31,320 nt of DNA. It comes from a virus. The number at the start of each line of letters is the position of its first letter. Positions within the stretch are counted from its first letter, which is position 1. The stretch is from IMG/VR virus record IMGVR_UViG_3300037247_000150, positions 1 to 31,320 of that record; one strand, written 5' to 3'. Below the pieces are notes generated by a model that was not told the DNA's origin, did not search any database, and saw only the letters and a list, made by a program, of their open reading frames with translations. The position numbers and the translations under genes are program-made. Below, piece after piece: positions 1 to 31,320 of this stretch.

Positions 1-67
1 CTAAGGCTCTGTCCCCTTTGTTTGCATCAACTAACTTATACTGTTTACCTACTATAAATTTACTCAT
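1..67 (-). CDS. Partial small FKxGK-type protein (N-terminus only)
   Basis: The first 22 codons of a leftward gene are present; the rest lies beyond the left edge. The ATG at 67 overlaps the stop of the upstream primase gene as ATGA, so translation is probably coupled. The visible peptide (MSKFIVGKQYKLVDANKG) closely matches the start of the gene at 3886-4149 (MSNIFKVGKQYKLLDSNK), so the two are paralogues. Function is unknown; the fold is probably the same small SH3-like barrel suggested for the other FKxG proteins in this operon. Confidence 0.7.
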   Translation of the reverse strand, partial: MSKFIVGKQYKLVDANKGDRAL

Positions 68-894
68 AATTGTATACCTTTAAATGTTTGGTTAAGTTGT
101 TGCACTGTCATGTCCTTGGGATCTGCCCCTAGTAAGGGTATGACATGTACGTTATTAAAAGCTAATGACAAGCCACGCTTCAGCTTGATAGCCTTGACCA
201 CTGCATCTGCATCAAGCAGAATGATTAGCTCCTCCACTCCTAGTGAAAGCATAGTATTTATATGCCTATCGAATATGTTAGTGCCCCCTAGACAGCAGGT
301 TGGTATCCCCATCTGTGAATTGATACGTAGCATGGACGGATAGTCCTCCACTACACACACACGCTTACTCTCTACCACCTGTGCTAGTACATTCATGTTA
401 GGGAATAGTAATCCCCCATCTCCTTGCATTGTTTGCTTCCAGTACACCTTAGCCCCCTTGGTTGGCTTGTTATTATCCAGTGCAGGATAGTGACGGGCTA
501 TGTACCCATGAATGCGACCAAGCACATCATACTGAGGGAAGTATACCCTCCCATCACCTTCACTGTAACGAACGTTAGCTAACCAAGCCCTTCCTATCCT
601 GAAGGTGTAGTAAAGATAATCTCTCTCGTACTTGGTAAGGATGGACAGTGTACCAGTAAACAGCTTAGCCTGTCTAATAACTGGTTGGTCTAAGCCCTTA
701 GCTTCACCCCCCTTGCTAGTTATAACACCCCTACAAGGACAGCTAGCACTGAAGCATATGTACATCACCTCACTAGCAGTGCGAGAGATACTAAATGCTT
801 GTGTACTGCCACACTTAGGACATACACCTCGCATACCACATCCTTCAGGGAGAGACAACACTTGTGTTAGCACTACCTGCTTATAGTTACTCAC
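64..894 (-). CDS. Phage DNA primase (zinc ribbon + TOPRIM)
   Basis: A 276-residue protein expected to make RNA primers for phage DNA replication. An N-terminal zinc ribbon is visible as C25-P-K-C28 paired with C47 and C52/C54. The TOPRIM fold follows: the acidic strand VCVVEDYPS (E183, D184) and the metal-binding IILLDADA (D228, D230), then GADPKDM. It resembles the primase half of T7 gp4, but no RecA-type helicase domain follows, so a helicase would have to be encoded further left. The start is a GTG at 894 overlapping the previous stop by 8 nt, with a weak Shine-Dalgarno, which fits coupled translation. It is the only clear replication gene in the window. Confidence 0.9.
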   Translation of the reverse strand: MSNYKQVVLTQVLSLPEGCGMRGVCPKCGSTQAFSISRTASEVMYICFSASCPCRGVITSKGGEAKGLDQPVIRQAKLFTGTLSILTKYERDYLYYTFRIGRAWLANVRYSEGDGRVYFPQYDVLGRIHGYIARHYPALDNNKPTKGAKVYWKQTMQGDGGLLFPNMNVLAQVVESKRVCVVEDYPSMLRINSQMGIPTCCLGGTNIFDRHINTMLSLGVEELIILLDADAVVKAIKLKRGLSLAFNNVHVIPLLGADPKDMTVQQLNQTFKGIQL

Positions 895-1177
895 CTGTTA
901 CAGGACGTATAAACTTGCCTGCTATATGAGCAGGACACAATGGCGTTGCTCCACCTATCCTATCCTTTATAATTTCACAGCCTTGCCACTCACGCTCACC
1001 CAGTACAGCTTTATCATAAGAGATGTCAAAGGTACATACACTGACCCCTTTAGCTCCCACAAGGGCACCTGCATATTCAAATGAATAACCTACAGCATCC
1101 TTCCATACTAAACCTAGTAACTTAACGCCATGTTCAGCAGCAGGGACATACATTTCATAACGTTTGCCTGCTACCAT
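887..1177 (-). CDS. Hypothetical small early protein, start uncertain
   Basis: The first ATG in frame is at 1177 (MVAGKRYEMYVPAAEHG...), giving 96 residues, but it has no good ribosome binding site. The same frame is open and protein-like back to 1234, adding a stretch that includes FELSLTAPILDADGNQ. A strong AAGGAGG lies just upstream at the end of the preceding gene, yet no ATG, GTG or TTG stands at a usable distance in this frame. Either a rare start is used, or the product is made as a +1 frameshift fusion with the upstream gene. The GKRYE segment is reminiscent of the GKQYK segment in two other genes of this operon. Function unknown. Confidence 0.65.
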   Translation of the reverse strand: MVAGKRYEMYVPAAEHGVKLLGLVWKDAVGYSFEYAGALVGAKGVSVCTFDISYDKAVLGEREWQGCEIIKDRIGGATPLCPAHIAGKFIRPVTGE

Positions 1178-1232
1178 CTGATTGCCATCTGCATCCAGTA
1201 TGGGTGCAGTTAGGCTTAGCTCGAAGTTGTAC

Positions 1233-1523
1233 TTAAGCAGCCTCCTTGTTGGCAGTACGCTTAGCTTTACGCTTAAGTTTTAAGTCACGCTTAACTAACA
1301 ACGCTGCATACTGAGGGCTAACATCTTTAGTCACTGCTCCATACAGGTCTTCAAAGATACGCTTACCTTCAGACAGACTGATGGTCTGCTTGTTACGTGG
1401 ATTGTCACGAGTGGTGTATGTGATAACAGTACCCTCTTTGTTAAGAGATGCAAACTTATCTGTTACACTGTGTAGTTTACGTAACATAACTTCCATAAAG
1501 AAATGGGGTGAAGATTTAAACAT
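1233..1523 (-). CDS. Hypothetical early protein with basic C-terminus
   Basis: A 96-residue protein with ATG at 1523 preceded by AAGGAG at a good distance. The N-terminal half is mixed alpha/beta (TVITYTTRDNP, ISLSEGKRIFEDLYG). The last 20 residues are strongly basic (KRDLKLKRKAKRTANKEAA) and could bind nucleic acid. No family recognised. The end of the gene carries AAG GAG GCT GCT TAA G, which resembles the layout of the prfB +1 frameshift site; the next open frame is reached by a +1 shift there. Confidence 0.75.
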   Translation of the reverse strand: MFKSSPHFFMEVMLRKLHSVTDKFASLNKEGTVITYTTRDNPRNKQTISLSEGKRIFEDLYGAVTKDVSPQYAALLVKRDLKLKRKAKRTANKEAA

Positions 1524-1524
1524 A

Positions 1525-1752
1525 TTATAACTCCTTCGCTAAGGTTAATACTGTACCACTAAGAACAACTACATCACCTACATCATCAATGAATGCTGTA
1601 GCTGCTGCTTCATAAGGCAATCCATCACTACCTGTGGCAGTCACCGTGTATACCTTGCTTGGTGTACAGTCACGCGCGGCTAGCGCTTGTCCTACTTTTA
1701 AGCCTACTTGATTCACTGTAATCTTATCACCAATTTTAAATGTATTACTCAT
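1525..1752 (-). CDS. Small FKxGD-type (SH3-like) protein
   Basis: A 75-residue, beta-rich protein starting MSNTFKIGDKITVNQ. The FKxGD start is shared with at least four other genes of this operon, suggesting a family of small barrel proteins made by duplication. The middle (SKVYTVTATGSDGLPYEA) and end (DDVGDVVVLSGTV) look like successive beta strands. No catalytic motif is seen. The gene ends in the Shine-Dalgarno of the next gene. Function unknown. Confidence 0.75.
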   Translation of the reverse strand: MSNTFKIGDKITVNQVGLKVGQALAARDCTPSKVYTVTATGSDGLPYEAAATAFIDDVGDVVVLSGTVLTLAKEL

Positions 1753-1755
1753 AAT

Positions 1756-1932
1756 CTATCCTATCATTATCATATAACATGTAGTTAATATCAGGGGTAC
1801 TAGTATCACAGTCCACCCTATGCCCATGCTTATGCTTACTATTAAACTTTCAATTGTTACTATCACTGCATGTACTGCTAGTATTACTACTAGTGCTAGA
1901 CATATAGTGAGGTGTACTAATACGCATATTAT
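1756..1932 (-). CDS. Possible small two-span membrane protein, no normal start codon
   Basis: One frame between the genes at 1752 and 1929 encodes a very hydrophobic peptide: a first span including CLALVVILAVHAVIVTI and a second including GWTVILVPLILTTCYMI, then TAG three bases before the next ATG. A strong AGGAGGTG lies in the end of the upstream gene, but only ATA codons (1932 and 1929) stand at a suitable distance. An ATG in another frame (1926) gives only 25 residues. Two explanations fit: a membrane protein begun at ATA, or a decayed gene. The length, hydrophobicity and exact fit of the gap favour a real gene; the start is unproven. Confidence 0.3.
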   Translation of the reverse strand: MICVLVHLTICLALVVILAVHAVIVTIESLIVSISMGIGWTVILVPLILTTCYMIMIG

Positions 1933-2129
1933 ATTATCGTTGTGTCACCTCCTGCTAGTAGCAACTTAAAACATTCAGCTTCATGTAAGTGCAAGCCTCT
2001 ATATTCAGCTATGCATAAGTACGTACCATGAAGGCAATCGCTTACCTCTATAACTGTACCCTTGTCACGCGACACCATACCTGCATTCATGCCACGTATA
2101 CGTATAACTCTATCACCTCTCTTAAACAT
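1929..2129 (-). CDS. Small FKxGD-type (SH3-like) protein
   Basis: 66 residues from the ATG at 2129, preceded by AGGGGGTAAT. This start is preferred over the longer frame because the upstream gene ends just before it. The protein (MFKRGDRVIRIRGMNAGMV...) aligns along its length with the first half of the gene at 3119-3628. Shared features are FKxGD at the start, a GMV turn, a VIEV strand, and LH followed by an acidic/AFKL end. These two are clear paralogues. KOW/SH3-like fold is likely; no function is assigned. Confidence 0.75.
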   Translation of the reverse strand: MFKRGDRVIRIRGMNAGMVSRDKGTVIEVSDCLHGTYLCIAEYRGLHLHEAECFKLLLAGGDTTII

Positions 2130-2130
2130 A

Positions 2131-2370
2131 TTACCCCCTATTATGTCTAAAGCAAAAGACTTCATCACCATTTGGTAACAGTCCATACACTAAATCAGTA
2201 GCCCATCCATTACGATGGCACATAAGCAAGGCTAGTGCATGTGCAGGCTGTTTGGTTGGCAAGTCAAGTGTGTCACGTTGAATGCCTCGCTCCCCTATAC
2301 TTGATGCTCTCATGACAAGCTTATCACCCTGCTTTACTAGCTTGACTACAATAGCCTTGTTACTACTCAT
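2131..2370 (-). CDS. Hypothetical early protein
   Basis: 79 residues, MSSNKAIVVKLVKQGDKLV..., overlapping the end of the upstream gene by 8 nt. It reads as a beta hairpin with GDKLVMR, a polar loop (ERGIQRDTLDLPTKQ), a helix (AHALALLMCHRNG) and two strands (DLVYGLLPNGDEVFCF). The stop is followed at once by the next FKxGD gene. No family recognised. Confidence 0.7.
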   Translation of the reverse strand: MSSNKAIVVKLVKQGDKLVMRASSIGERGIQRDTLDLPTKQPAHALALLMCHRNGWATDLVYGLLPNGDEVFCFRHNRG

Positions 2371-2533
2371 GCTCTTTACCTTTTAAGTACTGCGCTAGCT
2401 TGTCTAGTAGCACCTCCACTTCCCACTGGTACATCATACGCTCACTGTTCTGTATGTCCACCACATCAGGGGGATTAGACCACTTAGCTGCTGTTACCTT
2501 GGCTGCTGCTATTGCCCTACTTACTTTAGTCAT
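2363..2533 (-). CDS. Hypothetical small helical protein
   Basis: 56 residues from the ATG at 2533, which overlaps the upstream stop (TTATGA) and follows GGAGGGG. The product starts MTKVSRAIAAAKVTAAKW and ends with an amphipathic helix (WEVEVLLDKLAQYLKGKEHE). It is probably all alpha. The longer reading from 2557 lies inside the upstream gene and is not needed. Function unknown. Confidence 0.65.
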   Translation of the reverse strand: MTKVSRAIAAAKVTAAKWSNPPDVVDIQNSERMMYQWEVEVLLDKLAQYLKGKEHE

Positions 2534-2736
2534 AACCCCTCCTCCACATAGCCCCATCTATCCTTATCAAAGGTAAACCGCGCACCTTTAACATGTGTTG
2601 TCAAGTAGTGTTCCATTGTCACCTGTTCAGCCCATACGGGAGTAGGTAAGAACTTATTAAGCCTTGACTTGATGTTCTCATACTCATTAGCAATTACTGA
2701 TGGTGCTATCAATATTGTTACGTCACTGAATAACAT
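2530..2736 (-). CDS. Hypothetical early protein
   Basis: 68 residues with ATG at 2736, two bases beyond the stop of the upstream gene, and AGGGGTG as ribosome binding site. It has an N-terminal hydrophobic strand (VTILIAPSV), a helix (EYENIKSRLNKFL) and a C-terminal part rich in aromatics (ARFTFDKDRWGYVEEG). No recognised family. Confidence 0.7.
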   Translation of the reverse strand: MLFSDVTILIAPSVIANEYENIKSRLNKFLPTPVWAEQVTMEHYLTTHVKGARFTFDKDRWGYVEEGL

Positions 2737-2737
2737 G

Positions 2738-2908
2738 TTACACCCCTGAACGTATATAAATTAAGTTATTATGTCTTGCCAGTATAAGCTGACAATTACG
2801 TGTACTCTTAGGGAATGGTAGCTCATTAGTGAAGATAGTTTCAAAGCCCTTGTCTCGCATCATACGCATGAACTCATCGTTTGCTTGTGTGTTAGTTTGT
2901 TTAGTCAT
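2738..2908 (-). CDS. Hypothetical 56-residue early protein
   Basis: This small gene fills the gap between two larger ones: ATG at 2908 overlaps the upstream stop as TAATG, and TAA at 2738-2740 sits one base before the next ATG. The product runs MTKQTNTQANDEFMRMMRDKG and ends RHNNLIYIRSGV. It is a helix followed by strands. The tight junctions at both ends support that it is translated. Function unknown. Confidence 0.65.
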   Translation of the reverse strand: MTKQTNTQANDEFMRMMRDKGFETIFTNELPFPKSTRNCQLILARHNNLIYIRSGV

Positions 2909-3126
2909 TAACCTTGTACTCCTACGGTTACACCCATGTCATTGAGCTGTCGTATGCACTGCGCTGTTAGTGGTTCGCTACTAAGCAGCTGCTTTTTAAT
3001 ACCCTTTAATGTGACAGCTGTAACCTTATAATCTCTACGTGCTACATCAAACAGTGTTGCTAGGCAGTCAGTAGTTTCTAGTGTACCCCAGTCATCATAA
3101 ATATTGTGCTGTAGTTGCTTAGCCAT
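2908..3126 (-). CDS. Hypothetical early protein
   Basis: 72 residues from the ATG at 3126, which overlaps the end of the upstream gene. The much longer reading upstream overlaps that gene entirely and is rejected. The product (MAKQLQHNIYDDWGTLETTD...) contains a central basic segment (VARRDYKVTAVTLKGIKKQ) and a helix (PLTAQCIRQLNDMG). No family recognised; a helical fold is likely. Confidence 0.65.
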   Translation of the reverse strand: MAKQLQHNIYDDWGTLETTDCLATLFDVARRDYKVTAVTLKGIKKQLLSSEPLTAQCIRQLNDMGVTVGVQG

Positions 3127-3628
3127 AGTAGTCCTCGTTGTTAATGAATTCATCAGGTGAGAAGGGCATGCTATATGTCTCTTCAAACCACACACATGTG
3201 GCAGTACATGTCTTAACAGTGCGTGTCTCGCCATTAGGCATAGGTGTACCATCACGGTATACTAGCACATCCCCTGCCTTAAACTTACCAAGGCTACACA
3301 CTGGGGCAGCTGCCTTACGCTCATCATAATCCATGCCATCATCAGCCCCTTCCACAGGGTCATCACTATACTGTCCCTGACATGTAGGATGTATCGCTAC
3401 TGCCACCTTAGTGGCTGACAGTGCCTTAGTCTTACGTAACTGTTGTGTAGTGGGGGTTACTAGCTTAAATGCATCATCAGAGTGAAGGCCATTAGCGTTA
3501 CCCTTATAAGCTTTAAACTTAATACCCATTACATCCACTTCAATGACAACAGCAATGTCACCTGCTACCATGCCTTGATACTTACCACTAATACGTTCTA
3601 CTGTATCACCTACCTTGAATGGGTTCAT
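3119..3628 (-). CDS. Two-domain FKxGD protein (tandem SH3-like)
   Basis: 169 residues from the ATG at 3628 (ATGA overlap with the upstream stop). There are two copies of the small-barrel signature: MNPFKVGDTVERISG at the N-terminus and KFKAGDVLVYRDG from about residue 112. A polar linker joins them (about residues 65-105). The first copy is paralogous to the whole 1929-2129 protein, so this looks like a duplication or fusion of a single-domain gene. No catalytic residues are evident; binding to protein or nucleic acid would fit. The alternative GTG start at 3637 adds only three residues. Confidence 0.75.
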   Translation of the reverse strand: MNPFKVGDTVERISGKYQGMVAGDIAVVIEVDVMGIKFKAYKGNANGLHSDDAFKLVTPTTQQLRKTKALSATKVAVAIHPTCQGQYSDDPVEGADDGMDYDERKAAAPVCSLGKFKAGDVLVYRDGTPMPNGETRTVKTCTATCVWFEETYSMPFSPDEFINNEDYYG

Positions 3629-3822
3629 AATGTACACCCTGCAATAGCCTTAGCAAACTTAGCATCTGTAATGATACGCTCAATAGTCTTAGCCAATACA
3701 TACTCAGACTTATCACCAATGCTAGTATCAACACGCCCATGACTGTTAAGTTGTAGATTAAGCAGCACTATCAGTGCTGCTCCCGTTGTACTGTTAACAT
3801 TGCCCTTACTTGAGTCTTTCAT
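3625..3822 (-). CDS. Hypothetical early protein
   Basis: 65 residues from the ATG at 3822, preceded by AGAGG at about 8 nt. A longer reading from a GTG at 3867 would place the start inside the repeated hairpin at 3855-3873 and has no Shine-Dalgarno, so the shorter form is preferred, though the extra residues (TRLEAQL) look protein-like. The product is mainly helical (TGAALIVLLNLQLN; YVLAKTIERIITDAKFAKAIAG). Function unknown. Confidence 0.6.
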   Translation of the reverse strand: MKDSSKGNVNSTTGAALIVLLNLQLNSHGRVDTSIGDKSEYVLAKTIERIITDAKFAKAIAGCTL

Positions 3823-3854
3823 CAGTTGTGCCTCTAATCTAGTTAATATCAGTA

Positions 3855-3873
3855 AGCCCACTTGCACTAGGCT
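3855..3873 (-). repeat. 19-nt hairpin repeat, copy 1
   Basis: On the minus strand this reads AGCCTAGTGCAAGTGGGCT, identical to positions 6547-6565. The RNA would form a 6-bp stem (AGCCUA with UGGGCU, one G-U pair) and a 7-nt loop. Both copies sit in the wider gaps of the leftward operon. No U-run follows, so it is not an ordinary terminator. It could be a processing or protein-binding site. Confidence 0.6.
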
Positions 3874-3885
3874 TATAGCTATATA

Positions 3886-4149
3886 CTAATGTTCAGTTAC
3901 TTCTTCCCATACACCAGTATCTAAGCTACCCTCAACACCTATTACATGGTCGCCCGTAACAGGGTTAGGATAACGGGAGCTAACACCTGTCGTGTGTGTC
4001 TCGGCATCACCATCGTGTACTGCATGACATGTCCACACCAGTTCTTTTGGACATACAAGATATCCTTGCTTTAGATAATTATGAGTGGTGGTATGCTTAT
4101 TGCTATCTAACAACTTATACTGTTTACCAACTTTAAATATATTACTCAT
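3886..4149 (-). CDS. Small FKxGK-type protein, paralogue of the left-edge gene
   Basis: 87 residues starting MSNIFKVGKQYKLLDSNK, nearly the same as the N-terminus of the partial gene at 1-67. AAGGGG at a good distance supports the ATG at 4149. It contains two cysteines (VCPKELVWTC), too few for a clear zinc site, and several histidines. The middle (RYPNPVTGDHVIGVEG) reads as beta strands. Function unknown. Confidence 0.75.
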   Translation of the reverse strand: MSNIFKVGKQYKLLDSNKHTTTHNYLKQGYLVCPKELVWTCHAVHDGDAETHTTGVSSRYPNPVTGDHVIGVEGSLDTGVWEEVTEH

Positions 4150-4163
4150 GGTATGCCCCTTAC

Positions 4164-4370
4164 TTAGTTAAATTTACGGATGTTGTTACGTTTGGTAGCT
4201 GCTCGCTTAAGCTGAGCTGCACCTGATGGCTTATTGCCCTTACCTAATGCTCTGCCATATGCTTGCGTTTCACTGGCTGATATGGACTGCTTAATATGAT
4301 TAAGCTCTGGCTGTGTGCTTGCTACTGATAGTGCAATGTTTGCTAGTGTACGTGCTATGTTTTTAAACAT
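4164..4370 (-). CDS. Small basic protein
   Basis: 68 residues, net basic, with ATG at 4370 behind AGAGG. The N-terminus is an amphipathic helix (FKNIARTLANIALSVAS). The C-terminus is rich in lysine and arginine (KGNKPSGAAQLKRAATKRNNIRK) and could bind DNA or RNA. No family recognised. Confidence 0.7.
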   Translation of the reverse strand: MFKNIARTLANIALSVASTQPELNHIKQSISASETQAYGRALGKGNKPSGAAQLKRAATKRNNIRKFN

Positions 4371-4383
4371 GTTGTATGCCTCT

Positions 4384-4596
4384 TTAGTTAAGTGAATGTA
4401 GTAACCGTGCCATAGTTACAGCTTGGCTTGCTGTTGTAAATGTTAGTTTAAATCTAGCACCATCAGGACGTACCACCCACCAACTAAGATCATCTATACA
4501 ACCCGTTGCCATAACACGCCACGGATAATAATCCCCTACGCTATGCCCTCTTAAGCCTGCATTATTTGTTAAGTGTCCTGCTGTTAATGCTTTCAT
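4384..4596 (-). CDS. Hypothetical early protein
   Basis: 70 residues from the ATG at 4596. This start is chosen because AGGGG precedes it and because it overlaps the stop of the newly recognised upstream gene as ATGA; the upstream start at 4629 would lie deep inside that gene. The product (MKALTAGHLTNNAGLRG...) has a beta-rich centre (DDLSWWVVRPDGARFKLTF) and a C-terminal helix (ASQAVTMARLLHSL). Function unknown. Confidence 0.7.
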   Translation of the reverse strand: MKALTAGHLTNNAGLRGHSVGDYYPWRVMATGCIDDLSWWVVRPDGARFKLTFTTASQAVTMARLLHSLN

Positions 4597-4772
4597 TTTA
4601 TACCCCTGTCCCATTGTCTCATTGTCCATATGTTAATACGTTGCACCCTTGCGTTGTACTGTGCGTTTGTTATCAGACCGCGCACTAACTTACATGATAA
4701 ACGTCTTAACACTATGCCCCGTTGCTCGTACGCCTTATTGAATAGTGCTCTGTTTACTGGATGCCTCGTCAT
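4593..4772 (-). CDS. Small basic SHOCT-like protein
   Basis: A 59-residue gene that exactly fills the interval between its neighbours: ATG at 4772, stop TGA overlapping the next ATG. The product (MTRHPVNRALFNKAYEQRG...) is very basic. Its second half, LVRGLITNAQYNARVQRI, resembles the SHOCT pattern of a short helix, G-x-I-T, then a second helix. SHOCT segments are short oligomerisation modules found on many unrelated proteins. Identification is from the pattern only. Confidence 0.6.
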   Translation of the reverse strand: MTRHPVNRALFNKAYEQRGIVLRRLSCKLVRGLITNAQYNARVQRINIWTMRQWDRGIK

Positions 4773-4773
4773 T

Positions 4774-4971
4774 TTATATCCGTCCTATTAGTTCAAATCG
4801 TTTGGTACTGAAGTGTCCCTTGACACCCTCTAATACTACAATGTAGTTACCTAACGCATTGCTGACAGTGTACTCTTGATGTGCTGTTATCTTGCTGTTG
4901 TAGCAGTCACTAGGCATTACATTGCCAATGGTACACACCACCTTATCCCCCTTCTTATATGGATTAGGCAT
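4774..4971 (-). CDS. Small xKKGD-type (SH3-like) protein
   Basis: 65 residues, MPNPYKKGDKVVCTIGN..., with AAGGGG upstream of the ATG at 4971. It follows the same plan as the FKxGD genes: start motif, strands (YTVSNALGNYIVVLEG) and the ending HFSTKRFELIGRI, matching the AFKL-type endings of its relatives. Probably another diverged copy of the same small barrel. Function unknown. Confidence 0.75.
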   Translation of the reverse strand: MPNPYKKGDKVVCTIGNVMPSDCYNSKITAHQEYTVSNALGNYIVVLEGVKGHFSTKRFELIGRI

Positions 4972-4981
4972 TACTTACCCC

Positions 4982-5563
4982 TTACCTGTTGACTGTAAAT
5001 TTATATGTTACCCAAGTGATAGCTTGGAGTTGGTATGCCTTGATACCTAAGCTAGCTGCTACCATACGGTATGCTTGTCGTGCCGCAAGGTATTGTACCT
5101 TAGTTACCTTGTCAATGGCTGCACTTGTATCATCATATGCTACCCTTAAGGCATGCCTATCAATGGTTACTTCAGTGCTGTCAAGGTATGCTATGTTGTC
5201 AGCAAAGCTATATGTTTTAAGCCTTGACATAGCTATCATCCACTCACCTGACATAATACGGTGACACTCATCAATGGTACGTGCACTAGCAAAGTAACCA
5301 AAGGCAGGAATGATACCATTAAAATGCTCATTGAATAATGCTACTGCCTCGCGCTTGTTCTGTTCCCACTTCTTTTGAGGTGATAACACACTGATTATCT
5401 GTGCTGCCTGTAGTACACTGACATGATACTCACTGCTAAGCTGCACTGCTAAGCTATGCGCCTCACTATACCATCCAATACCCTCTATAACTTGTTGTTT
5501 AGTGGCAACATGATACCATTTAAGGATACGATTACATTGCTGTCTTACTGTTAACTTATTCAT
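4982..5563 (-). CDS. Conserved phage protein, possible divergent HhH-GPD DNA glycosylase
   Basis: 193 residues, all helical. The pattern IISVLSPQKKWEQNKREA near residues 57-73 and VTIDRHALRVAY near 132-143 are those of a phage protein family of unknown function. The second segment looks like the VDTH segment of endonuclease III/HhH-GPD glycosylases, where the aspartate is catalytic. Here D135 is followed by R-H, and K116 lies 19 residues before it; in E. coli endonuclease III, K120 and D138 are 18 apart. No iron-sulphur cysteine cluster is present. Base excision or modified-base handling is therefore possible but unproven. It is the second largest gene of the leftward operon. Confidence 0.75.
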   Translation of the reverse strand: MNKLTVRQQCNRILKWYHVATKQQVIEGIGWYSEAHSLAVQLSSEYHVSVLQAAQIISVLSPQKKWEQNKREAVALFNEHFNGIIPAFGYFASARTIDECHRIMSGEWMIAMSRLKTYSFADNIAYLDSTEVTIDRHALRVAYDDTSAAIDKVTKVQYLAARQAYRMVAASLGIKAYQLQAITWVTYKFTVNR

Positions 5564-5625
5564 ATGTCACTCACATATTAGTTGATACTAGATAGCATGC
5601 TTGCACCGTGCTATTAACTATTAAC

Positions 5626-5871
5626 TTATAGACCTTGTGCCCGTTCGATAAAGTTTGTCCATGCTGCCTGCTTATCCATGTCATAGCACCCACTAATGAA
5701 CTCGACTTTACTGTTGTTATATACAGCACATCGCCATGTGATGTAAGTATCATCACTAGCACGAGCGCATAAGATAACGTTACCTAGTACAGCTTGTACT
5801 GTACAGCCTAGTTCACATGCTCGTATTTTAACGAGGTTACAATTTGCTAGTATACTATTAACTTTAATCAT
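5626..5871 (-). CDS. Hypothetical early protein
   Basis: 81 residues starting one base inside the previous stop (TAATG), so translation is coupled. The first half contains four cysteines (NCNLVKIRACELGCTVQAV...LCARA) without clear metal-site spacing. The second half reads as a strand pair followed by a helix (ISGCYDMDKQAAWTNFIERAQGL), a layout common in small phage proteins. Function unknown. Confidence 0.7.
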   Translation of the reverse strand: MIKVNSILANCNLVKIRACELGCTVQAVLGNVILCARASDDTYITWRCAVYNNSKVEFISGCYDMDKQAAWTNFIERAQGL

Positions 5872-6284
5872 TACTTAACACTCCAATAGTCACAGCCATT
5901 AAGGATAGTGTAGCTTGTAGCCCCCTTGGGTGCGTTCTGTCTGCACTTAAATCCATGACCTATATGTGTAGTAGTACAGTCACTGTTATGTAGCTGTACA
6001 TCGTGCTTGCGATTGTTACTAACAAGCACACACTCTTGCTTATACACCTCAAGACCTAGCCGCTTAATATCACCCACTGTATGACTACTGTTAGTGTGGA
6101 TAACATACGCTTGCTCAGCATCACTATGATATACGCCTATTGCAGGGATAGCATGCACATGATAATGATGCTCTAATCTATCATGCATACGTGCACTGTT
6201 GATTAAGTTGGTTAGCTCAGTTGCATTACTAAGGTATGCGCTAAGTATCACCGTGTATTTCTTGTCCGTTACTAAGGTGTTCAT
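5871..6284 (-). CDS. Conserved-looking early phage protein
   Basis: 137 residues with ATG at 6284, AGGAAAG upstream and a 4-nt overlap with the preceding membrane protein. Recognisable stretches are GVYHSDAEQAYVIHTNS, followed by a helix (TVGDIKRLGLEVYKQECVLV), resembling short proteins common in the early regions of T7-like and other phages. Several histidines are clustered (EHHYHVHA). No catalytic assignment can be made. Confidence 0.75.
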   Translation of the reverse strand: MNTLVTDKKYTVILSAYLSNATELTNLINSARMHDRLEHHYHVHAIPAIGVYHSDAEQAYVIHTNSSHTVGDIKRLGLEVYKQECVLVSNNRKHDVQLHNSDCTTTHIGHGFKCRQNAPKGATSYTILNGCDYWSVK

Positions 6285-6400
6285 GTTAGCTTTCCTAGTA
6301 GTATAATCAACTCTATTGATACAGCCACAGCACTAACTCCTAGCACCATTAGTATCACACTTATAATAAACAACTTAGCCGTGTCAAGTAAGAGATTCAT
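6281..6400 (-). CDS. 39-residue single-span membrane protein
   Basis: ATG at 6400 overlaps the stop of the upstream gene, and the stop overlaps the next ATG, both as ATGA. After MNLLLDTAK a hydrophobic segment follows (LFIISVILMVLGVSAVAVSI and ELIILLG), ending KLT. It is almost entirely transmembrane. Together with its neighbour of equal length it forms a pair of tiny coupled membrane proteins. Role unknown; inner-membrane interference or superinfection exclusion are possibilities only. Confidence 0.65.
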   Translation of the reverse strand: MNLLLDTAKLFIISVILMVLGVSAVAVSIELIILLGKLT

Positions 6401-6516
6401 ATTGCCCACTTAGCTATCTCAATAGCTGTTATTACTACCACTGTTAATAAGAATGTAAGGTACAATGTTTGCACTATGTCCCACACGATATTCAATCCAT
6501 CCAGTACCTTGTCCAT
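6397..6516 (-). CDS. 39-residue single-span membrane protein
   Basis: ATG at 6516, stop overlapping the next start by 4 nt. The N-terminus is amphipathic and acidic (MDKVLDGLNIVWDIVQT), followed by one span (LYLTFLLTVVVITAIEIA) and the tail KWAI. It has the same length and general plan as the following gene. The upstream GGTGA is a weak ribosome binding site. Function unknown. Confidence 0.6.
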   Translation of the reverse strand: MDKVLDGLNIVWDIVQTLYLTFLLTVVVITAIEIAKWAI

Positions 6517-6546
6517 AATCATTCACCTTGTTTGTTGTCATTATGT

Positions 6547-6565
6547 AGCCCACTTGCACTAGGCT
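6547..6565 (-). repeat. 19-nt hairpin repeat, copy 2
   Basis: Identical to 3855-3873, again between two genes of the leftward operon and able to form the same 6-bp RNA stem and 7-nt loop. The flanking bases differ after the core, so the conserved unit is the hairpin itself. Confidence 0.6.
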
Positions 6566-6580
6566 ATTAATGATAACTAA

Positions 6581-6730
6581 TTAAGCTTTGCCTTCTTCAT
6601 AGTGACCAAAACTTTTACCTTTATTCTTGTGCCCGTTAGGTCTTAGGTTGTCATTAAAGCTATGTACTTGAAACGTGTTAATAAATGCTTGGCTTGGTTT
6701 ACGTGGTAGTAACGATACATATTTACTCAT
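6581..6730 (-). CDS. Hypothetical 49-residue protein, first gene of the leftward operon
   Basis: ATG at 6730 preceded by AAAGAGAG. The product (MSKYVSLLPRKPSQAFINTF...) is basic and polar, ending with NGHKNKGKSFGHYEEGKA, and is probably poorly structured. It lies next to the candidate leftward promoter and would be the first gene expressed from it. No family recognised. Confidence 0.6.
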   Translation of the reverse strand: MSKYVSLLPRKPSQAFINTFQVHSFNDNLRPNGHKNKGKSFGHYEEGKA

Positions 6731-6761
6731 GCTATATACTCTCTTTGTTGAATGTAAGCTA

Positions 6762-6791
6762 ACTATAAACGAGTAGTTTTAAATGTGTTAA
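6762..6791 (-). promoter_or_regulatory. Candidate sigma70 promoter for the leftward operon
   Basis: On the minus strand TTAACA (6791-6786) is followed after 18 nt by TATAGT (6767-6762); each differs from consensus at one position. Transcription would begin near 6755, about 25 nt before the first ATG at 6730. The site is well placed, but the region is AT-rich and chance matches are possible. Confidence 0.45.
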
Positions 6792-6913
6792 TTCAATTAA
6801 TGAATAATGAATATAGATGATATGAATACCCCGAACACTGCACCACAGTGCAAGACTCAAGTCTGATAGTGTACGGATATACAGTGGATTAAGTACAGGC
6901 TAATGAATATAGG

Positions 6914-7259: not shown

Positions 7260-7412
7260 TGATGTCCGGTCTTCATATATGTTGCACTGCACTGCATTTC
7301 TTCAGGGGGTACAAGGGGGGATACATGTGCGCCAGACACAGAGCATTCGGCAACACTAATTTCTACATATATTATTATCTAGGAGGGGGCAGGATGGCAT
7401 ACTAAATTTTAT

Positions 7413-23663: not shown

Positions 23664-23664
23664 C

Positions 23665-26600
23665 ATGGCAGAAGAACTATTAAACCCTGAAAGCTTTGGT
23701 AAGGTGATAGACACGGATGTCTCCTCCGACAAAGAAGTGATGGCACCTGACAGCATGGCAACGCTGTTGGATGATGCCTTAACTGAAGGCAATACCAAAC
23801 AGGCAGACCTTGCAACTCAGAATGCAATGATACAAGGTAAGGCCACTAATACAGAAACAATTAACTTAGCTGCAGCCTCCTCCGAAGGGGCTGTGGCTTT
23901 GTCTATTGCTGCAGATAAATTATATGGTGAGATTGAAGGCAACATCCGTAATATAGGTAATAGCTTCGCAGAGATTAGCCCTAATGATATGCCGGGAGTA
24001 CTGGAACAAGTAGTAACAGCACAGACTCAAGTGAATGAATTCCGTAAGAGTCCCGTAGCGACAGAATTAGCTGTCATACGTGGTGCAACTACCACTCCAC
24101 TAGCTGAAGCAGTTCAGAAGGAGTTAGCGTTCTCTCTGGCTGCGCACAATGAGATATCAGCCCTGCTAGATGACCAAGGTATATGGGATACCATTGCTAA
24201 CATAGGTGGTAACTTTGTTCCATTCCGGCAGGCAACTGACTATAGTGACACCAAGGATAATATCAGTGAGCATCCTGACCTTAAAGATGTTATAGATGGC
24301 AACAGTATTGCTAGCATGATAGGTTCATTTCAGGCGCTGCCTACTGAGCGTAAGGTAGCTATCTTTCCCATGATAGTTGAGGCAGTATTACAAGCTACAG
24401 GTGTGGATTATTCACCGGGAAACGTGCTACTTAGGTCAGATAAGAATGTACTGAATGCTGCAGGTATACTAATTAGGTTCCTACAACCAGAAGGTGGGGA
24501 ACGTGCAACACTTGAGACTAAAATCTTAGGTGGTATAGATGTACTTAGTGTGCTACCCTTTGGTGCTATAAGCAAAGCAGCCAAGCTAGCGACTATACCT
24601 AGCACCTCACCTCTAGCAGCAGCCCTAGCAGGTAAACGCTTAGCCAAGATTAATAAGCTAACTCCTGTGACACGTAAGAACATGGAGGGTATCCTTGCTA
24701 ATGCAGGTGACTACTTACGCAGAGTGAATAACCCTGTCAAGGTTGTGGCTAACGCAGGTGATACTAAACAAGCAGCACACATGAACCTAGCTGCTATGAT
24801 GGATGATGACGTAGCCAAAGCTTATGGTTTACCTAGTGATGGCGCATATAAAAATGCTATGCCTATGAGAGCTGATGCAGCTACTCCTGAATTCGTAGAA
24901 GGATTAGTATCAGAGACAGCAGAGGCTTTGAATGGATTCATTAGTAAGAGCCAAGGTTTTGTACGAAGCATGACTTCAGAGTCAGACTTGATTACATTAG
25001 GTGTAATTGGTAAGTCAGAACGTAACTTAGTAGTTAGAAACTTTTATAACGATATGGAATTAAAAGCTGAAGACTTATTACAAGAAGGTATAAGCCTTAC
25101 TGATGTTAAAGTACTTGAGAAGTCCATTGATGAAGCAGGATTTACATATGAGTTTGTCTTACAAAACACCAAGCACCTTGAACTTGAAGCAGCAGGAGAG
25201 CTTACCAATCTTAAACCTAAAACTCACACAGCATTCCGTAGTTGGCGAGTTAATGAGCAAACGGGTAACTTTGAAGAGACAGTTAAGCACCTGTCCAAGG
25301 CAGGCAGTGGCAGAATTGCAGGACTATCACCTGCTGCATGGTCAGTTACTAAGAAGGGAGGTATGGACTTCAACGATGCCGTCAAGCAGTCAACAGCACT
25401 GGAAGATGTCTCAGTTACTAGCAAGCAACTTATCAATAGGCAGTGGATTGAAGCCAACGAAGGGATTGCAGGAATTGGTGGTACTAAAAGCCGTGCTCGT
25501 ATTGAGTCTATTGAACTGGCAGGAGATGAGTATATTAATAAAGGGTCGCAGATACGGGGTAAAGTCTTTACAGAGAATGAGCTTATTGCAGGTGTGCAGA
25601 CCAGAGATGGCACCGTAAGATTAACTAAGCAGAATGAGATTGAAGGCTACTACAAACGTAGAGTATTTGCGGATAACCTGTGGAGTATTCAGAACTACAT
25701 CACCCGTAGAGAACTACAGATAGCAGGGTTCAATAGCTCCGTCACCTTGAAGGGACAGGGCTTATCTGTTAAGACATTTGATACCCCATTGGCAGCAGCC
25801 ATGTCAGCTAATCAGCGTGTAGGACGTAACGTTTACATCACCAACACAGATGAGACAGTGGCATTAACCACTGAGCTTATTGAGAAGCAGTATGCTAAAG
25901 GCAAGGTGCTAGTACGTTCACGTAACGATTGGAATGTAACAGGTGCAGGAGATTTAGCCCGTGGTGGTGAGGTTGTAGAGTATATCTTCTTAGAACGAAA
26001 AGCTCTAAAGAACTTACCAGACCAAGTATTACATTATAAGAACGGATATGTGCCTAAGATTAATGAAGGTGTGGAGTATGTAGTTAAACGTAAGATGCCT
26101 GTTGATAAAGTAGGTGTTACAGGAGCAACTAAAGATACAGCACTAAGAGCATTCAGTTCTAATGCAGATGCCTTGTTATTCCAAGAGCGTGAGATAGCTA
26201 AGATACTAGCCAAGCACCCTGAAAAGACTCAGGATGAAGTGGCTAAGTTGTTTGAAATAGCAGATGGTAGCAAAATGGCACAGATGGAGCGTATGGAGAA
26301 CGCACTGAGTGGCACAGGAGGGCTATACACTGGCACACGTAGTGCAGATGACTTACTGATGGGCTTAGATGGTGTTCCTATTGAGCGTATGGCTCCGGGT
26401 GAGGCATTTGGCAGATATATTGACCACCTTGGTGGAGCGGTAACACGTAATGAGTGGAGAATAGGACAAGAACAGCAGTGGCTTAACACTGTACGTAAGA
26501 TGGACAATGGCATAGAGATTAAAGGCTTCAACGGTACATTCTTACCTGATACCCCGGAAGGCAACGCCCTACGACGTATGCGTAACCAGATTAACACATG

Positions 26601-28440
26601 GAATCGTGTACCTAGCAGACAAGAGAGCTTATTTGAGGGTATGATACAGAAGTACCATGACTGGATGCTTGAAGGTTCCCGTAAAATGGGACTTAATAAG
26701 AACAGTATCAACCATGCACTATGGCTCAAGCATGCTGACCCTGTGTCTGCCATCCTTACAGCTAACATGCACGTTATGTTAGGTGCTATGGCTCCCGTTC
26801 AGGTGTATGTACAAGCATCAGCTGCTACAGTAGCGCTGAGCTTAGTACCTATCAAGAGTATACCGGGAATCATTGCAGATACTGCACGGTTTACCATGCT
26901 AGATAACATCCGTAACTTCAGTACATTTGAGAAGGTACTAGTCAAGTTAGTTAATGGCAAGCAGGTGTTAAAAGAACAAGAGGAAATGTACAAAGGTTGG
27001 AGAAGGTCAGGTCTATATGACTCTGTACGTTCCAACGCTGACATGAACTACATGTCCAGTACAGGACTAGGCATAACATCTGACTTTATGCGTAAGGGCA
27101 GTAATGCTTCCTTAATATTTTATAGAGCAGGCGAGCTAACTAACAGACGTATTAGCTTTATCTCTGCATACACTAGGTGGAAGACTGCTAATCCTAAGGC
27201 TACATTAGACAATGACAACCTATTACAGGTGGTACAAGAGGCTAATAAGACTATGCTTGAGCTGAACGCTGCTAACAAGGCTTGGTGGCAAGGTGGGGCA
27301 GGAACGTCAGCACCACAGCGTGTACTATCTATCACAGGACAGTTCCAACAAGTACTGGCTAAGACTGTGGAGTTATCCCTTAAGGGTACAAAACAGGGAG
27401 GCTTTACTAAAGCTCAGAAGGCGCGTATTGCTACAGGACAGGTATTAATATTTGGAGCAGCAGGTGTACCTTTACTTAACGTTGTACTCCCTGCATACTT
27501 TGAGTGGCTAGGTATTGAGCCTAACAGTGCAGCTGCTAATGCATTTAACCAAGGAGCTACAGGTGCTTTAGTCAGAGAGGTGTTTGCTGCAGGTATTGAT
27601 ATCGCAAGTAGAGCATCATTGTTTAGTGGTACATTTGAAACTATGAGGGACATTATTACAAGTAAAGACCCTATGTGGCAGAAAATGTTAGCTGTGAGTG
27701 GTACTACAGGACAGCGAATTGTAGAAGCAGTGTCAACAGCAAGTATGGTAGCTAAGTCTCAAGCATTTACTGCTCTGGCTGAATTAGAGCCGTTACTTAT
27801 GCATGACCGTAGTGGAGAGACTATAATGCAAGAGCCTACTATGATAGAAACAGCTCGTGATATTGCTGTACTGTTAGGTACAATACCGTCAGGTAGTCGT
27901 GGTATATTAAAAGCATTGATGATGCATAACTCAGGCAAAATACTTGACCGAAGAGGCCGTGTAGTTATTGACACCACTGATGAAGGCGGTTTTACCTTTG
28001 CGGATAAAATGGGAGTGGCATTAGGCTTTCAGTTAACCCGTGAAACTAGGGTACGGTTACTACAGCAGCACAATAGAGACACTGATGCAACAGTTAACGC
28101 TGCAGCACAGGTTATCATAGCTTCTTACCATAGATATGTGTACACCCATAACATGAACCCTAAGTATGCACAATCAGTGAGCAATGTGGTACAATTGATA
28201 CACGAATCAGTGGACAATCCCTACTTAGTGGAACGTATTATGTCTCGTGTTGAGAGTGGTATCTTTAAGGATGCTAAGTCCGTAGAAGAACGTGAGATGC
28301 TGAAGTTCTATGAGTCAGTAGCAGCTGAGAAGCTAACTGAAGGTGTCATGATGGACACAGGTATTAACTTTGGTAAACTATTTAATAAACAAGCTATCGT
28401 GCAACCATTCCAACACACGTTAGAACAGGAGAATAAATAA
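23665..28440 (+). CDS. Giant internal core protein (T7 gp16-like, no lytic transglycosylase seen)
   Basis: 1591 residues (T7 gp16: 1318). It should lie in the capsid core and be ejected to build the channel across the cell envelope. The first 150 residues are acidic and helical, without the E-S and GLMQ motifs of the lytic transglycosylase at the T7 gp16 N-terminus. Hydrophobic stretches occur near 1033-1065 (AMAPVQVYVQASAATVALSL) and 1257-1285 (QVLIFGAAGVPLLNVVLPAY), candidates for membrane contact. The remainder is alternating helix and beta. No frameshift was seen. It joins the next gene as TAATG. Confidence 0.8.
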   Translation: MAEELLNPESFGKVIDTDVSSDKEVMAPDSMATLLDDALTEGNTKQADLATQNAMIQGKATNTETINLAAASSEGAVALSIAADKLYGEIEGNIRNIGNSFAEISPNDMPGVLEQVVTAQTQVNEFRKSPVATELAVIRGATTTPLAEAVQKELAFSLAAHNEISALLDDQGIWDTIANIGGNFVPFRQATDYSDTKDNISEHPDLKDVIDGNSIASMIGSFQALPTERKVAIFPMIVEAVLQATGVDYSPGNVLLRSDKNVLNAAGILIRFLQPEGGERATLETKILGGIDVLSVLPFGAISKAAKLATIPSTSPLAAALAGKRLAKINKLTPVTRKNMEGILANAGDYLRRVNNPVKVVANAGDTKQAAHMNLAAMMDDDVAKAYGLPSDGAYKNAMPMRADAATPEFVEGLVSETAEALNGFISKSQGFVRSMTSESDLITLGVIGKSERNLVVRNFYNDMELKAEDLLQEGISLTDVKVLEKSIDEAGFTYEFVLQNTKHLELEAAGELTNLKPKTHTAFRSWRVNEQTGNFEETVKHLSKAGSGRIAGLSPAAWSVTKKGGMDFNDAVKQSTALEDVSVTSKQLINRQWIEANEGIAGIGGTKSRARIESIELAGDEYINKGSQIRGKVFTENELIAGVQTRDGTVRLTKQNEIEGYYKRRVFADNLWSIQNYITRRELQIAGFNSSVTLKGQGLSVKTFDTPLAAAMSANQRVGRNVYITNTDETVALTTELIEKQYAKGKVLVRSRNDWNVTGAGDLARGGEVVEYIFLERKALKNLPDQVLHYKNGYVPKINEGVEYVVKRKMPVDKVGVTGATKDTALRAFSSNADALLFQEREIAKILAKHPEKTQDEVAKLFEIADGSKMAQMERMENALSGTGGLYTGTRSADDLLMGLDGVPIERMAPGEAFGRYIDHLGGAVTRNEWRIGQEQQWLNTVRKMDNGIEIKGFNGTFLPDTPEGNALRRMRNQINTWNRVPSRQESLFEGMIQKYHDWMLEGSRKMGLNKNSINHALWLKHADPVSAILTANMHVMLGAMAPVQVYVQASAATVALSLVPIKSIPGIIADTARFTMLDNIRNFSTFEKVLVKLVNGKQVLKEQEEMYKGWRRSGLYDSVRSNADMNYMSSTGLGITSDFMRKGSNASLIFYRAGELTNRRISFISAYTRWKTANPKATLDNDNLLQVVQEANKTMLELNAANKAWWQGGAGTSAPQRVLSITGQFQQVLAKTVELSLKGTKQGGFTKAQKARIATGQVLIFGAAGVPLLNVVLPAYFEWLGIEPNSAAANAFNQGATGALVREVFAAGIDIASRASLFSGTFETMRDIITSKDPMWQKMLAVSGTTGQRIVEAVSTASMVAKSQAFTALAELEPLLMHDRSGETIMQEPTMIETARDIAVLLGTIPSGSRGILKALMMHNSGKILDRRGRVVIDTTDEGGFTFADKMGVALGFQLTRETRVRLLQQHNRDTDATVNAAAQVIIASYHRYVYTHNMNPKYAQSVSNVVQLIHESVDNPYLVERIMSRVESGIFKDAKSVEEREMLKFYESVAAEKLTEGVMMDTGINFGKLFNKQAIVQPFQHTLEQENK

Positions 28441-30215
28441 TGGCAGCTTCGCCCTTTGCTACGTCAGGTAATGTAGCCGATATTGCACCAGTACAGTTGA
28501 GGGGTGGCTTCACCCCTAACACTGGCATTGCTGATGCAGTAGTTAACGTGGCTAACTTAGCCATACCACTTATCACTAAGGCTCATGAGGATGAGCTTGT
28601 AGATGATGTGTCAGGTAGAATTAAAGCAGTAAGTCTTGCACTAAAAGCAACTAGGTTCCCCTCCATTCAGGATAGTATATTCAGTGAGGAGGCTTTAGCT
28701 AATCCACAAGTAGCACTAGCACTGAAGGAGTTCACTCTTATACAGGATGCTGCCACTAAGGGCAGATTACCACAGACATTTGCACTTGAACGCTTGGAGC
28801 TTATACAGAATAACGCAATACGTAATGCTCCTGAGTTTGAAGCAGAGATACGTGGTGCCATGAGGGATGCAACAGGACAAGACCCACAGAAGACTCTGTT
28901 CCAACAGTTAATTAGTACTACCAGTGGTAAGACTGCACAGCAGAAACTGGATGAACAATTGTTCATTGAAGCAGGCAAGCAGGGTATCACAGTTGAGAAG
29001 CTTATAGCTATAAATCACTCTGTAGCACAGAACCAGATACAACAACAACAATATGACCTAGCAGCTAAGCAAGGTACATATGACTTAAATACACTTAGTA
29101 AAGATGTTGCTATTAAGAGTGCTACAATAATCACAGATATAATGTCTACTGTGAATAAGACATTAGTAGGTGGTGGTAGTATTGGTGTAAATGAGAAGCG
29201 TAACTTAATAACGCAAGTTAATGCTGCTTACGGAGTAGCATCTGCACAAATTATGGCTAATGTTAATGGCGTGAACGTATCAGGTACGGCAGTGCAAGCA
29301 GAACTTGCTCCACTTAATGCTATGAGGGACAATACTATTGCTATGATTGAAGATAACACAATGCAGACTATGCTCTCACAACACAACAAAGTAATCGTAG
29401 ACTCCACCGTCAGTAACGTGTTGCACAATGAGCAGTTTGGAGGCATTTATGCACTAGCAGGGGAACGTGGACTGCTAGACTGGATGAAGTGGATGGGTAA
29501 AGCAGGTGGTACAGCTGAAGGTAAAGCTTTAGTAGCCTCCCTTAATGCAGATGCTAAGATAGGCTTTGAATTAAACAACATAGGTAAAGCTTATACTGAA
29601 ATAGGTGGTGCTGTAGAGCCTGAGACTAAGCAGGCTAAACAAGAGCGTGTGATAGCTGCAGGCATTGCATTAGCAACGCAGGGTATACCTGAAGAGTTTC
29701 AGATTACAGCACTAGAAGAGATTAAGAAGTTTGGTGGTGAAGAACTAGCATGGTCTAGCTTTAACAGCAACAAGGTGTTAACAGCCACTGCTACAAGCAA
29801 CAAGCTTAAAGCAGCATTCATTAATATGCAGGTGACAACCACTGCAGGGCTATCGAGTGAGTTACTTAACTTAGCTGCTGACCCTGAGTTACCGCTAGAA
29901 CGATTAGAACTTAACCAAGCAGACCAGTTGCATATTAAACCTCAAAGTGGATTTGGTACAGTTGGCCGTGATGCTAGATTAGCAGAGGGTAGACTGCAGA
30001 CATTCGTTGATAGGTTCAATAGAGCCAACAGCATATCTGCTAAGTACAACGGAGCAGGCATACTACCTTCAGCTAGGTATCAAGGTGCAGCTCAGTACTG
30101 GGAAATTGTGAAGAGTGCAGCTAGTGCTGCAGTAGCACCGAAGGAGAAGACTAGCGCGCCTAGGACAGTGGTTCGTGACAGTGATGGTAACCTTAGCTTT
30201 AGTGACGGGAGTTAA
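28440..30215 (+). CDS. Internal core protein (T7 gp15-like)
   Basis: 591 residues (T7 gp15: 747), nearly all helical: ATKGRLPQTFALERLELIQN, AQQKLDEQLFIEAGKQ, and ERVIAAGIALATQG. It has the size, position and character of the second large core protein of T7-like virions, although here it follows rather than precedes the giant one. The N-terminal 20 residues are glycine- and proline-containing and mobile-looking. Starts with GGAGAATAAATAATG. Confidence 0.7.
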   Translation: MAASPFATSGNVADIAPVQLRGGFTPNTGIADAVVNVANLAIPLITKAHEDELVDDVSGRIKAVSLALKATRFPSIQDSIFSEEALANPQVALALKEFTLIQDAATKGRLPQTFALERLELIQNNAIRNAPEFEAEIRGAMRDATGQDPQKTLFQQLISTTSGKTAQQKLDEQLFIEAGKQGITVEKLIAINHSVAQNQIQQQQYDLAAKQGTYDLNTLSKDVAIKSATIITDIMSTVNKTLVGGGSIGVNEKRNLITQVNAAYGVASAQIMANVNGVNVSGTAVQAELAPLNAMRDNTIAMIEDNTMQTMLSQHNKVIVDSTVSNVLHNEQFGGIYALAGERGLLDWMKWMGKAGGTAEGKALVASLNADAKIGFELNNIGKAYTEIGGAVEPETKQAKQERVIAAGIALATQGIPEEFQITALEEIKKFGGEELAWSSFNSNKVLTATATSNKLKAAFINMQVTTTAGLSSELLNLAADPELPLERLELNQADQLHIKPQSGFGTVGRDARLAEGRLQTFVDRFNRANSISAKYNGAGILPSARYQGAAQYWEIVKSAASAAVAPKEKTSAPRTVVRDSDGNLSFSDGS

Positions 30216-30216
30216 C

Positions 30217-30918
30217 ATGGCATTACATGAACCAACAACAATATTTCATGAGCCTGCCGTAAAGCCAGAGCCATTGGACATAAGGGAGGATGTGTCTGAT
30301 AAGTCCATCTCCTTTAATGGGCAGATATACAACTTCCCTGCAGATACCAACGATGAGGAGATGTTACAGTTCCTTAACGACATACCTGCAGATGAAGAGG
30401 CAACTGATGAGGAGCCACCAGAGCCATTTAGAGAGACAGCAGTCATTAAGAAGGACGAAGGGGTCAGGAAAGATAAAGATGACAACCACATCTCATACAG
30501 GGATACTGAGAAGCACCTTACAGGGGGTAGAGGACATCTACTTAACAAGGATGAGCGTAAATTATACCCTAAAGGTACAATCATACCAGACGAAGTGGTT
30601 GATGCTTGGTTTAAAGAGGACATGGAAGTGGCAGATGCTGACCTAACTAGCATACTTGAACAGAAGGCAACACATGTGCCAGATGAGGTGTATGATATCC
30701 TCCTGAACATGAGCTTTAACCTAGGCAAGAAGAACCTACTCAAGTTTAAGAAGATGTGGGCTGCAGTGGAAGTAGAGGATTGGGCAACAGTGTCCCATGA
30801 AATGCTGAACACAGGTGACAGCAAGAGTAAGTGGCATAAGCAAGTAGGTAACAGAGCAGTGAGACTAGCAAACAGAATGAGAGCATTAGCACCTAAGAGT
30901 GAGGAGCAGTTAACTTAG
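30217..30918 (+). CDS. T4-type lysozyme (GH24) with virion-type N-terminal extension
   Basis: 233 residues from the ATG at 30217 (GGGAG upstream). The C-terminal 150 residues are a T4-lysozyme-like muramidase: catalytic E81 (KKDEGVR), D96 (YRDTEKH) and T102 in TGGRGHLLNKDE, with the D-to-T spacing of T4 (D20, T26); E-to-D is longer (15 against 9). Later GH24 features are LLNMSFNLGKKNLLKFKKMW and the RAVRLANRMR end. The first 75 residues are acidic and hold ISFNGQIYNFPADTNDEEML, a motif seen in phage virion proteins. No signal peptide, so it needs a holin or delivery in the virion. Confidence 0.85.
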   Translation: MALHEPTTIFHEPAVKPEPLDIREDVSDKSISFNGQIYNFPADTNDEEMLQFLNDIPADEEATDEEPPEPFRETAVIKKDEGVRKDKDDNHISYRDTEKHLTGGRGHLLNKDERKLYPKGTIIPDEVVDAWFKEDMEVADADLTSILEQKATHVPDEVYDILLNMSFNLGKKNLLKFKKMWAAVEVEDWATVSHEMLNTGDSKSKWHKQVGNRAVRLANRMRALAPKSEEQLT

Positions 30919-30959
30919 CAACAACTGGTATCCCCAGTGAAGAGAGCTTTGGTGCTGCA

Positions 30960-31151
30960 GTGATAACCCAAGCTACTGACGTTGTGTTGTTAGCAACAGG
31001 TATACCTAGCACAGAGACTTTCGGTAGTCCGATAGTGTCACTGGAAGGTGATAAGATAATTAAGATAGATGGGCTAGGAGAGAAGATACTTGCTCAGAAC
31101 TTAGCATCAACAACGCTGTATTACAATGGTAGGGATTACTTCAGTATATAA
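30960..31151 (+). CDS. Small repeat protein (GIPSxExFG motif), start uncertain
   Basis: The first canonical start is GTG at 30960 (63 residues), with no good ribosome binding site. The frame is open from 30903 and encodes LATTGIPSEESFGAAV before the GTG, a clear copy of LLATGIPSTETFGSPIV after it, so the coding part probably begins earlier. GAGGAG lies at 30901-30906, but no ATG, GTG or TTG follows in this frame. A GTT (30909) is the closest candidate. GIPSxExFG motifs are common in short or C-terminal segments of phage tail proteins; their function is unknown. Confidence 0.55.
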   Translation: MITQATDVVLLATGIPSTETFGSPIVSLEGDKIIKIDGLGEKILAQNLASTTLYYNGRDYFSI

Positions 31152-31163
31152 CAGGCAAAAGAA

Positions 31164-31190
31164 AGCCCCAGTTAAGGGGCTATTCTTACT
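31164..31190. terminator. Bidirectional terminator between converging genes
   Basis: AGCCCC, loop AGTTAA, GGGGCT. On the minus strand it is followed by TTCTTTTG, on the plus strand by ATTCTTACTT. It sits exactly between the last rightward gene and a leftward gene ending at 31190, so it can stop transcripts from both sides. Confidence 0.8.
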
Positions 31191-31320
31191 TATAACTTAA
31201 GGTTTAACTTGTACTGCTCCGATAATACACGTAACACATACTTCTGATTGTCATCAAGGATAGTATTTTTACCTACCAACTCCAAGTACTCTGTCACACC
31301 TTGCATCTTAGTAGCAGCAG
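31190..31320 (-). CDS. Partial leftward gene at the right edge (C-terminus)
   Basis: The last 42 or so codons of a gene entering from the right. The visible end contains TKMQGVTEYLELVGKNTILD and RVLSEQYKLNLKL, amphipathic and helical. Its orientation, like the left arm, indicates that the early block resumes beyond the late module. Function cannot be told from the fragment. Confidence 0.65.
   Translation of the reverse strand, partial: AATKMQGVTEYLELVGKNTILDDNQKYVLRVLSEQYKLNLKL

Follow-up and report, generated by a model that had tools for sequence, protein, structure and literature searches.

Near-total loss of GATC by selection at silent sites in a Zobellviridae-type podovirus: a possible mark of host Dam/MutH mismatch repair

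The stretch of DNA analysed here, referred to as the window, is the whole of virus record IMGVR_UViG_3300037247_000150 (31,320 bases). Its relatives are longer, 42-50 kb, and the window is therefore very likely a genome fragment. The terminase and the major head protein fall inside the classified Zobellviridae (tblastn searches, trees, and taxonomy lines), beside members of the family that infect Vibrio breoganii, Enterovibrio norvegicus, and V. parahaemolyticus. The phage itself is a marine podovirus of the Zobellviridae type, and probably a lytic one. The genes are arranged in two divergent blocks (Table 1). In the rightward block, the HslV-type peptidase is followed by the terminase, a head-tail adaptor, and the major head protein, after which come tail proteins, an internal virion protein, and a lysozyme-like protein. 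Neither a helicase nor a DNA polymerase is present among the genes recognised in this 31,320-base fragment.

Table 1. Features of the window, with positions counted from its first base
Feature	Coordinates	Strand	Remarks
Early gene block, leftward	64..6284	-	Both GATC sites inside
Primase (PHROG 47)	64..894	-	Kin of the stand-alone primase in GATC-free Vibrio phages
GATC site 1	120..123	.	Lies in the gene for primase; Asp GAT followed by Pro CCC, part of a D-P-K-D motif
Small early gene carrying GATC site 2	4384-4629	-	
GATC site 2	4488..4491	.	Asp GAT + Leu CTT; GAT to GAC would remove it
DUF7178 / PHROG 3842 protein, 193 aa	4982-5563	-	
Intergenic stretch dividing the divergent blocks	6285..7942	.	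GATC, CCWGG, CCAGC, and GGNCC all 0
Late block, rightward	7943..30918	+	Head, packaging, tail, and lysozyme-like genes; GATC 0
HslV-type peptidase	8216-8710	+	PHROG 1040; opens the late block
Terminase large subunit	11379..13013	+	Marker for the family tree
Major head protein	15878..16828	+	70% identical to that of Vibrio breoganii phage 1.015.O

GATC occurs only twice in the 31,320 bases, at 120 and 4488. The number of copies to be expected is 115 given the base composition, 75 under a Markov model of maximal order, and 68 under a dinucleotide model. When synonymous codons were swapped among the 43 genes in 400 trials, keeping the proteins and the codon usage, 65.9 +/- 6.0 copies were expected, with a minimum of 49, which places the observed count at z = -10.6. 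This recount of the whole window agrees with a preliminary description made from the letters alone, which had reported these two sites, both in the leftward early block (64..6284), had seen none in the late module, and had judged the word to be far below random expectation: positions 7943-31320 and the intergenic stretch (6285-7942) contain no GATC, and two copies stand against 66-115 under the four null models.

The loss of GATC is written almost wholly through synonymous codons. Asp before a C is encoded by GAT and GAC in a proportion of 2:44, as opposed to 334:170 before other bases (p = 2e-17), and Ile is encoded by ATC in none of 93 cases after a G-ending codon, as opposed to 109 of 470 in other contexts (p = 5e-10); Ser TCN after a codon ending in GA has no case in the window genes. 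Taken together, the codon-shuffle deficit and the neighbour-dependent choice of Asp and Ile codons mean that the loss is the result of selection at silent positions. Both surviving sites consist of an Asp GAT followed by C. Since four relatives (L275, L276, L277, and L281) have GAC CCN at the position of the first one, the GATC at 120 seems to have arisen recently by a silent change. The overall pattern could hardly have come about by chance, through base composition or mutation bias, or as an artefact of assembly: nothing was found in favour of these origins, with dinucleotides lowering the expectation only from 115 to 68, and they are contradicted by the codon shuffles, by the neighbour-dependent codons, and by seven other short contigs of the window's clade, all of which have zero GATC.

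The effect had initially been described as specific to GATC, which proved wrong, because CCWGG, GGNCC, and CCAGC/GCTGG are likewise at zero, with 34, 17, and 48 copies expected, respectively, by codon shuffle (the last one counted on both strands); all three are depleted under composition and Markov expectations too. The related claim that GATC is unlike other 4-base palindromes holds in part: among the 16 compared, GATC alone is near-absent (2/75), but GGCC is also strongly low (10/38), no other palindrome being so. GGCC after G or before C contains GGNCC, so that the absence of GGNCC would account for at least some of the GGCC deficit. Regarding CCAGC/GCTGG, Ala directly ahead of a codon starting with GG is written GCA 76 times out of 77, the effect of which is that GCTGG is avoided.

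EcoRII-type and Sau96I-type endonucleases recognise CCWGG and GGNCC, and the codon shuffle thus finds for both words what restriction-site avoidance entails, namely the elimination of motifs cut by known endonucleases. We know of no enzyme with CCAGC/GCTGG as its site. The purge of CCWGG, GGNCC, and CCAGC reads as ordinary restriction-site avoidance on top of the loss of GATC. The three words are unevenly distributed among the relatives. CCAGC/GCTGG is also absent from L002 and L007 and nearly absent in the V. breoganii phages; within the window's clade, only the window, L002, L007, L116, and the V. breoganii phages have lost it, and outside the clade it is lost in L122 and L124. The loss of CCWGG extends to most of the Zobellviridae, with gamma- and alphaproteobacterial hosts alike (1/74 in roseophage SIO1), except for the Pseudomonas, OM43, and Salinivibrio phages, and a gene-presence comparison of the family genomes gave no convincing candidate for a gene tracking it.

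The comparison with relatives encompassed 22 phages with full or nearly full genomes, plus a set of environmental contigs. Among the rows listed, the GATC ratio (observed over expected) is bimodal in the family, either at or below 0.15 or at or above 0.32, the others all being above 0.7. In the terminase clade of the window, 15 of 15 rows, several of them short contigs, have a GATC ratio of 0.00-0.03, whereas CCWGG is at zero in 13 of these rows, GGNCC in 10, and CCAGC is near zero in 6. Uniform loss of GATC next to patchy loss of the other motifs makes GATC the constant target in this clade. On the terminase tree, with 120 rows, the GATC state switches at least 12 times. One contig, L197 (IMGVR_UViG_3300023223_000751), has 6 GATC versus 13 expected in 5.5 kb, and its helicase is 72% identical to that of the GATC-free contig G007; it may represent a lineage that has only lately escaped the GATC-avoiding regime. 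No paper linking Zobellviridae with GATC was found among those searched.

Gene-presence clustering of these genomes gave rise to the idea that a replication module with a separate primase and a DnaB-like helicase causes the loss of GATC, irrespective of the host. All genomes of the family with that primase (8/8), including an OM43 phage, are GATC-free or nearly so, which is why the module was considered as a possible cause. However, two scans of viral contigs showed that many of those with a related helicase have normal GATC. Stenotrophomonas phage StenR_269 has 202/268, and W08, W10, and W11 are GATC-free yet have a fused primase-helicase. That the module dictates the GATC state is thereby largely refuted, and we regard this idea as very improbable.

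The GATC state is associated with the host group. Of the 12 named phages that infect Vibrionaceae, Enterobacteriaceae, or Pseudoalteromonas, 10 have a GATC ratio of 0.15 or less, as does none of the seven phages of P. aeruginosa and Rhodobacterales (roseobacters), all seven of which are at 0.6 or above (Fisher p = 0.0007, with related rows counted as separate). Dam is generally present in Vibrio, Enterobacteriaceae, and Pseudoalteromonas, and is not known from P. aeruginosa and roseobacters. An independent-pairs test of host Dam status comprises only two phylogenetically independent contrasts, and therefore too few for significance. The phages of Rhodobacterales have GANTC, the CcrM site, at 0.28-0.37 of the expectation of the dinucleotide model. 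In the five roseobacter phages (L070-L079: SIO1, P12053L, ICBM1, ICBM2, and CRP-4), CGCG is missing altogether from every one, and CCGG is at 0-2 in four of them. The earlier proposal of long-term host selection on GATC thus stands as far as the use of synonymous codons, the clade-wide loss, and the tracking of host groups are concerned, but not in its specificity.

Vibrionaceae, to which the nearest named hosts belong, generally carry both Dam and MutH. A search of genome contigs for the terminase as a pointer to the host gave 14 contigs of metagenome-assembled genomes (MAGs), whose binning is doubtful. A MutH model matches 74/79 genomes from the order to which a Colwellia MAG belongs and 21/94 from its class; for an alphaproteobacterial MAG, the figure for the class is 0/41. 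The Zobellviridae contig binned with the MutH-bearing Colwellia MAG, possibly in error, has a GATC ratio of 0.84, which speaks against MutH as the cause. Models of the D12, Dam, and N6_N4 methylases (PF02086, PF05869, and PF01555) have no match in the window, which is a fragment, or in the GATC-free relatives, the scan covering these three families.

From these data, we consider that GATC was purged from this lineage of Zobellviridae-type podoviruses by counterselection through the Dam/MutHLS system of the host, and the other motifs by restriction avoidance, a reading to which we assign a probability of roughly 0.55. We infer MutH as the agent and a host bearing Dam and MutH for the window phage. 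According to this proposal, the lineage would infect bacteria with Dam/MutHLS mismatch repair, in which the copying of phage DNA would outpace methylation by the host Dam, so that GATC sites would stay un- or hemimethylated. At such sites MutH, acting with MutS and MutL at replication errors, would nick or break the phage DNA. A genome devoid of GATC would give MutH no site, and newly arisen sites would be cleared by purifying selection. The loss of GATC probably shields the phage from a host enzyme cutting at this word.

Such an enzyme might also be a type II endonuclease of the DpnII/MboI/Sau3AI kind, driving the avoidance with Dam and MutH uninvolved, which we hold to be possible but somewhat unlikely. 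The window has also been cleared of other words of the restriction type, and the GATC-free OM43 phages also lack GGCC. Moreover, Rusinov et al. 2018 (PMC6286503) document restriction-site elimination mainly in non-temperate dsDNA phages, and found GATC under-represented in 46/46 phages whose hosts encode type IIM GATC enzymes. Nevertheless, the loss of GATC is uniform across the window's clade and several host genera, whereas restriction repertoires differ by strain and the other motifs are lost patchily. A steady loss of GATC beside patchy loss of the rest fits a core host enzyme, and this near-invariance within the clade, a matter of sequence comparison, leads us to lean towards Dam/MutH over restriction.

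Methylated or hemimethylated GATC could also be harmful in other ways, either by SeqA delaying replication or packaging, or by a nuclease of the DpnI kind cutting it. In favour of this alternative, SeqA and Dam co-occur in Vibrionaceae, Enterobacteriaceae, and Pseudoalteromonas, and the association with hosts is identical to the one for MutH, from which the sequence does not set it apart. On the other side, type IIM and IV sites are in general only weakly avoided, which the authors of the survey ascribe to type II systems (PMC6286503). We regard this alternative as distinctly unlikely.

Two sets of phages weigh against the Dam/MutH reading, which leaves them unexplained. Even within Vibrio, phage 1.264.O (L098) retains 108/160 GATC, and VPMCC5 (L052-L054) 90/154. 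Neither has a recognisable methylase according to the three methylase family models, and the annotation of 1.264.O shows no evident gene for a methylase or for base modification. These two phages have in common a dozen gene families that none of the other genomes under comparison possesses, and which are candidates for a protective function. The OM43 phages MEP401/402 have zero GATC and have also wholly lost GGCC (0/41); the paper on them makes no mention of methyltransferase, restriction, or methylation. One might imagine a GATC-directed defence common to Vibrionaceae and OM43, neither MutH nor a classical endonuclease, which a gene of 1.264.O and VPMCC5 would neutralise, even though we see this as a long shot.

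The purge of GATC is a known phenomenon, to which the lineage of the window adds a new case, in a setting well suited to comparison. The reason for its loss from phages has been debated since 1984, with evidence coming mostly from enterobacteriophages. The Zobellviridae represent a natural experiment in this regard, as the counts of GATC inside this one family run from exactly zero up to normal, Dam, CcrM, and MutH vary between its host groups, and its roseobacter members lose GANTC instead. This clean on/off switching within one phage family is the most useful aspect of the case and, if the link to the host were true, motif profiles could help to predict the hosts of uncultured marine phages.

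The closest systems for comparison are the phages 1.015.O, 1.034.O, 1.077.O, and VpV262, which belong to the terminase clade of the window and have GATC at 0 of 128-197 and CCWGG at 0, but whose terminases are only about 47-53% identical to that of the window, and which differ among themselves in GGNCC and CCAGC status. The phages surveyed by Rusinov et al. 2018 resemble the window in that short palindromes, CCWGG and GGNCC being examples, are eliminated (ratio <0.1); contrary to them, the window also eliminates the asymmetric 5-mer CCAGC on both strands. Type I, IIG, and III sites showed no systematic avoidance in that survey (PMC6286503). For enterobacteriophages such as T7 and phiX174, counterselection of GATC goes back to McClelland 1984 and to Deschavanne and Radman 1991, with MutH proposed as its basis in the latter; both are cited here after PMC5014478, which itself regards the forces behind it as unclear. 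A GATC-bearing variant of phiX174 has been published (PMC5014478). The window belongs to the Zobellviridae, whereas T7 is a member of the Autographiviridae and phiX174 an ssDNA microvirus. Run through the same script as the window, T7 has GATC at 6/153 and CCWGG at 2/70, and phiKMV has GATC at 194/181. Like the window phage, T7 is small, encodes no recognisable Dam, and has lost nearly all of its GATC; unlike in the window, GGNCC and CCAGC are not eliminated in T7.
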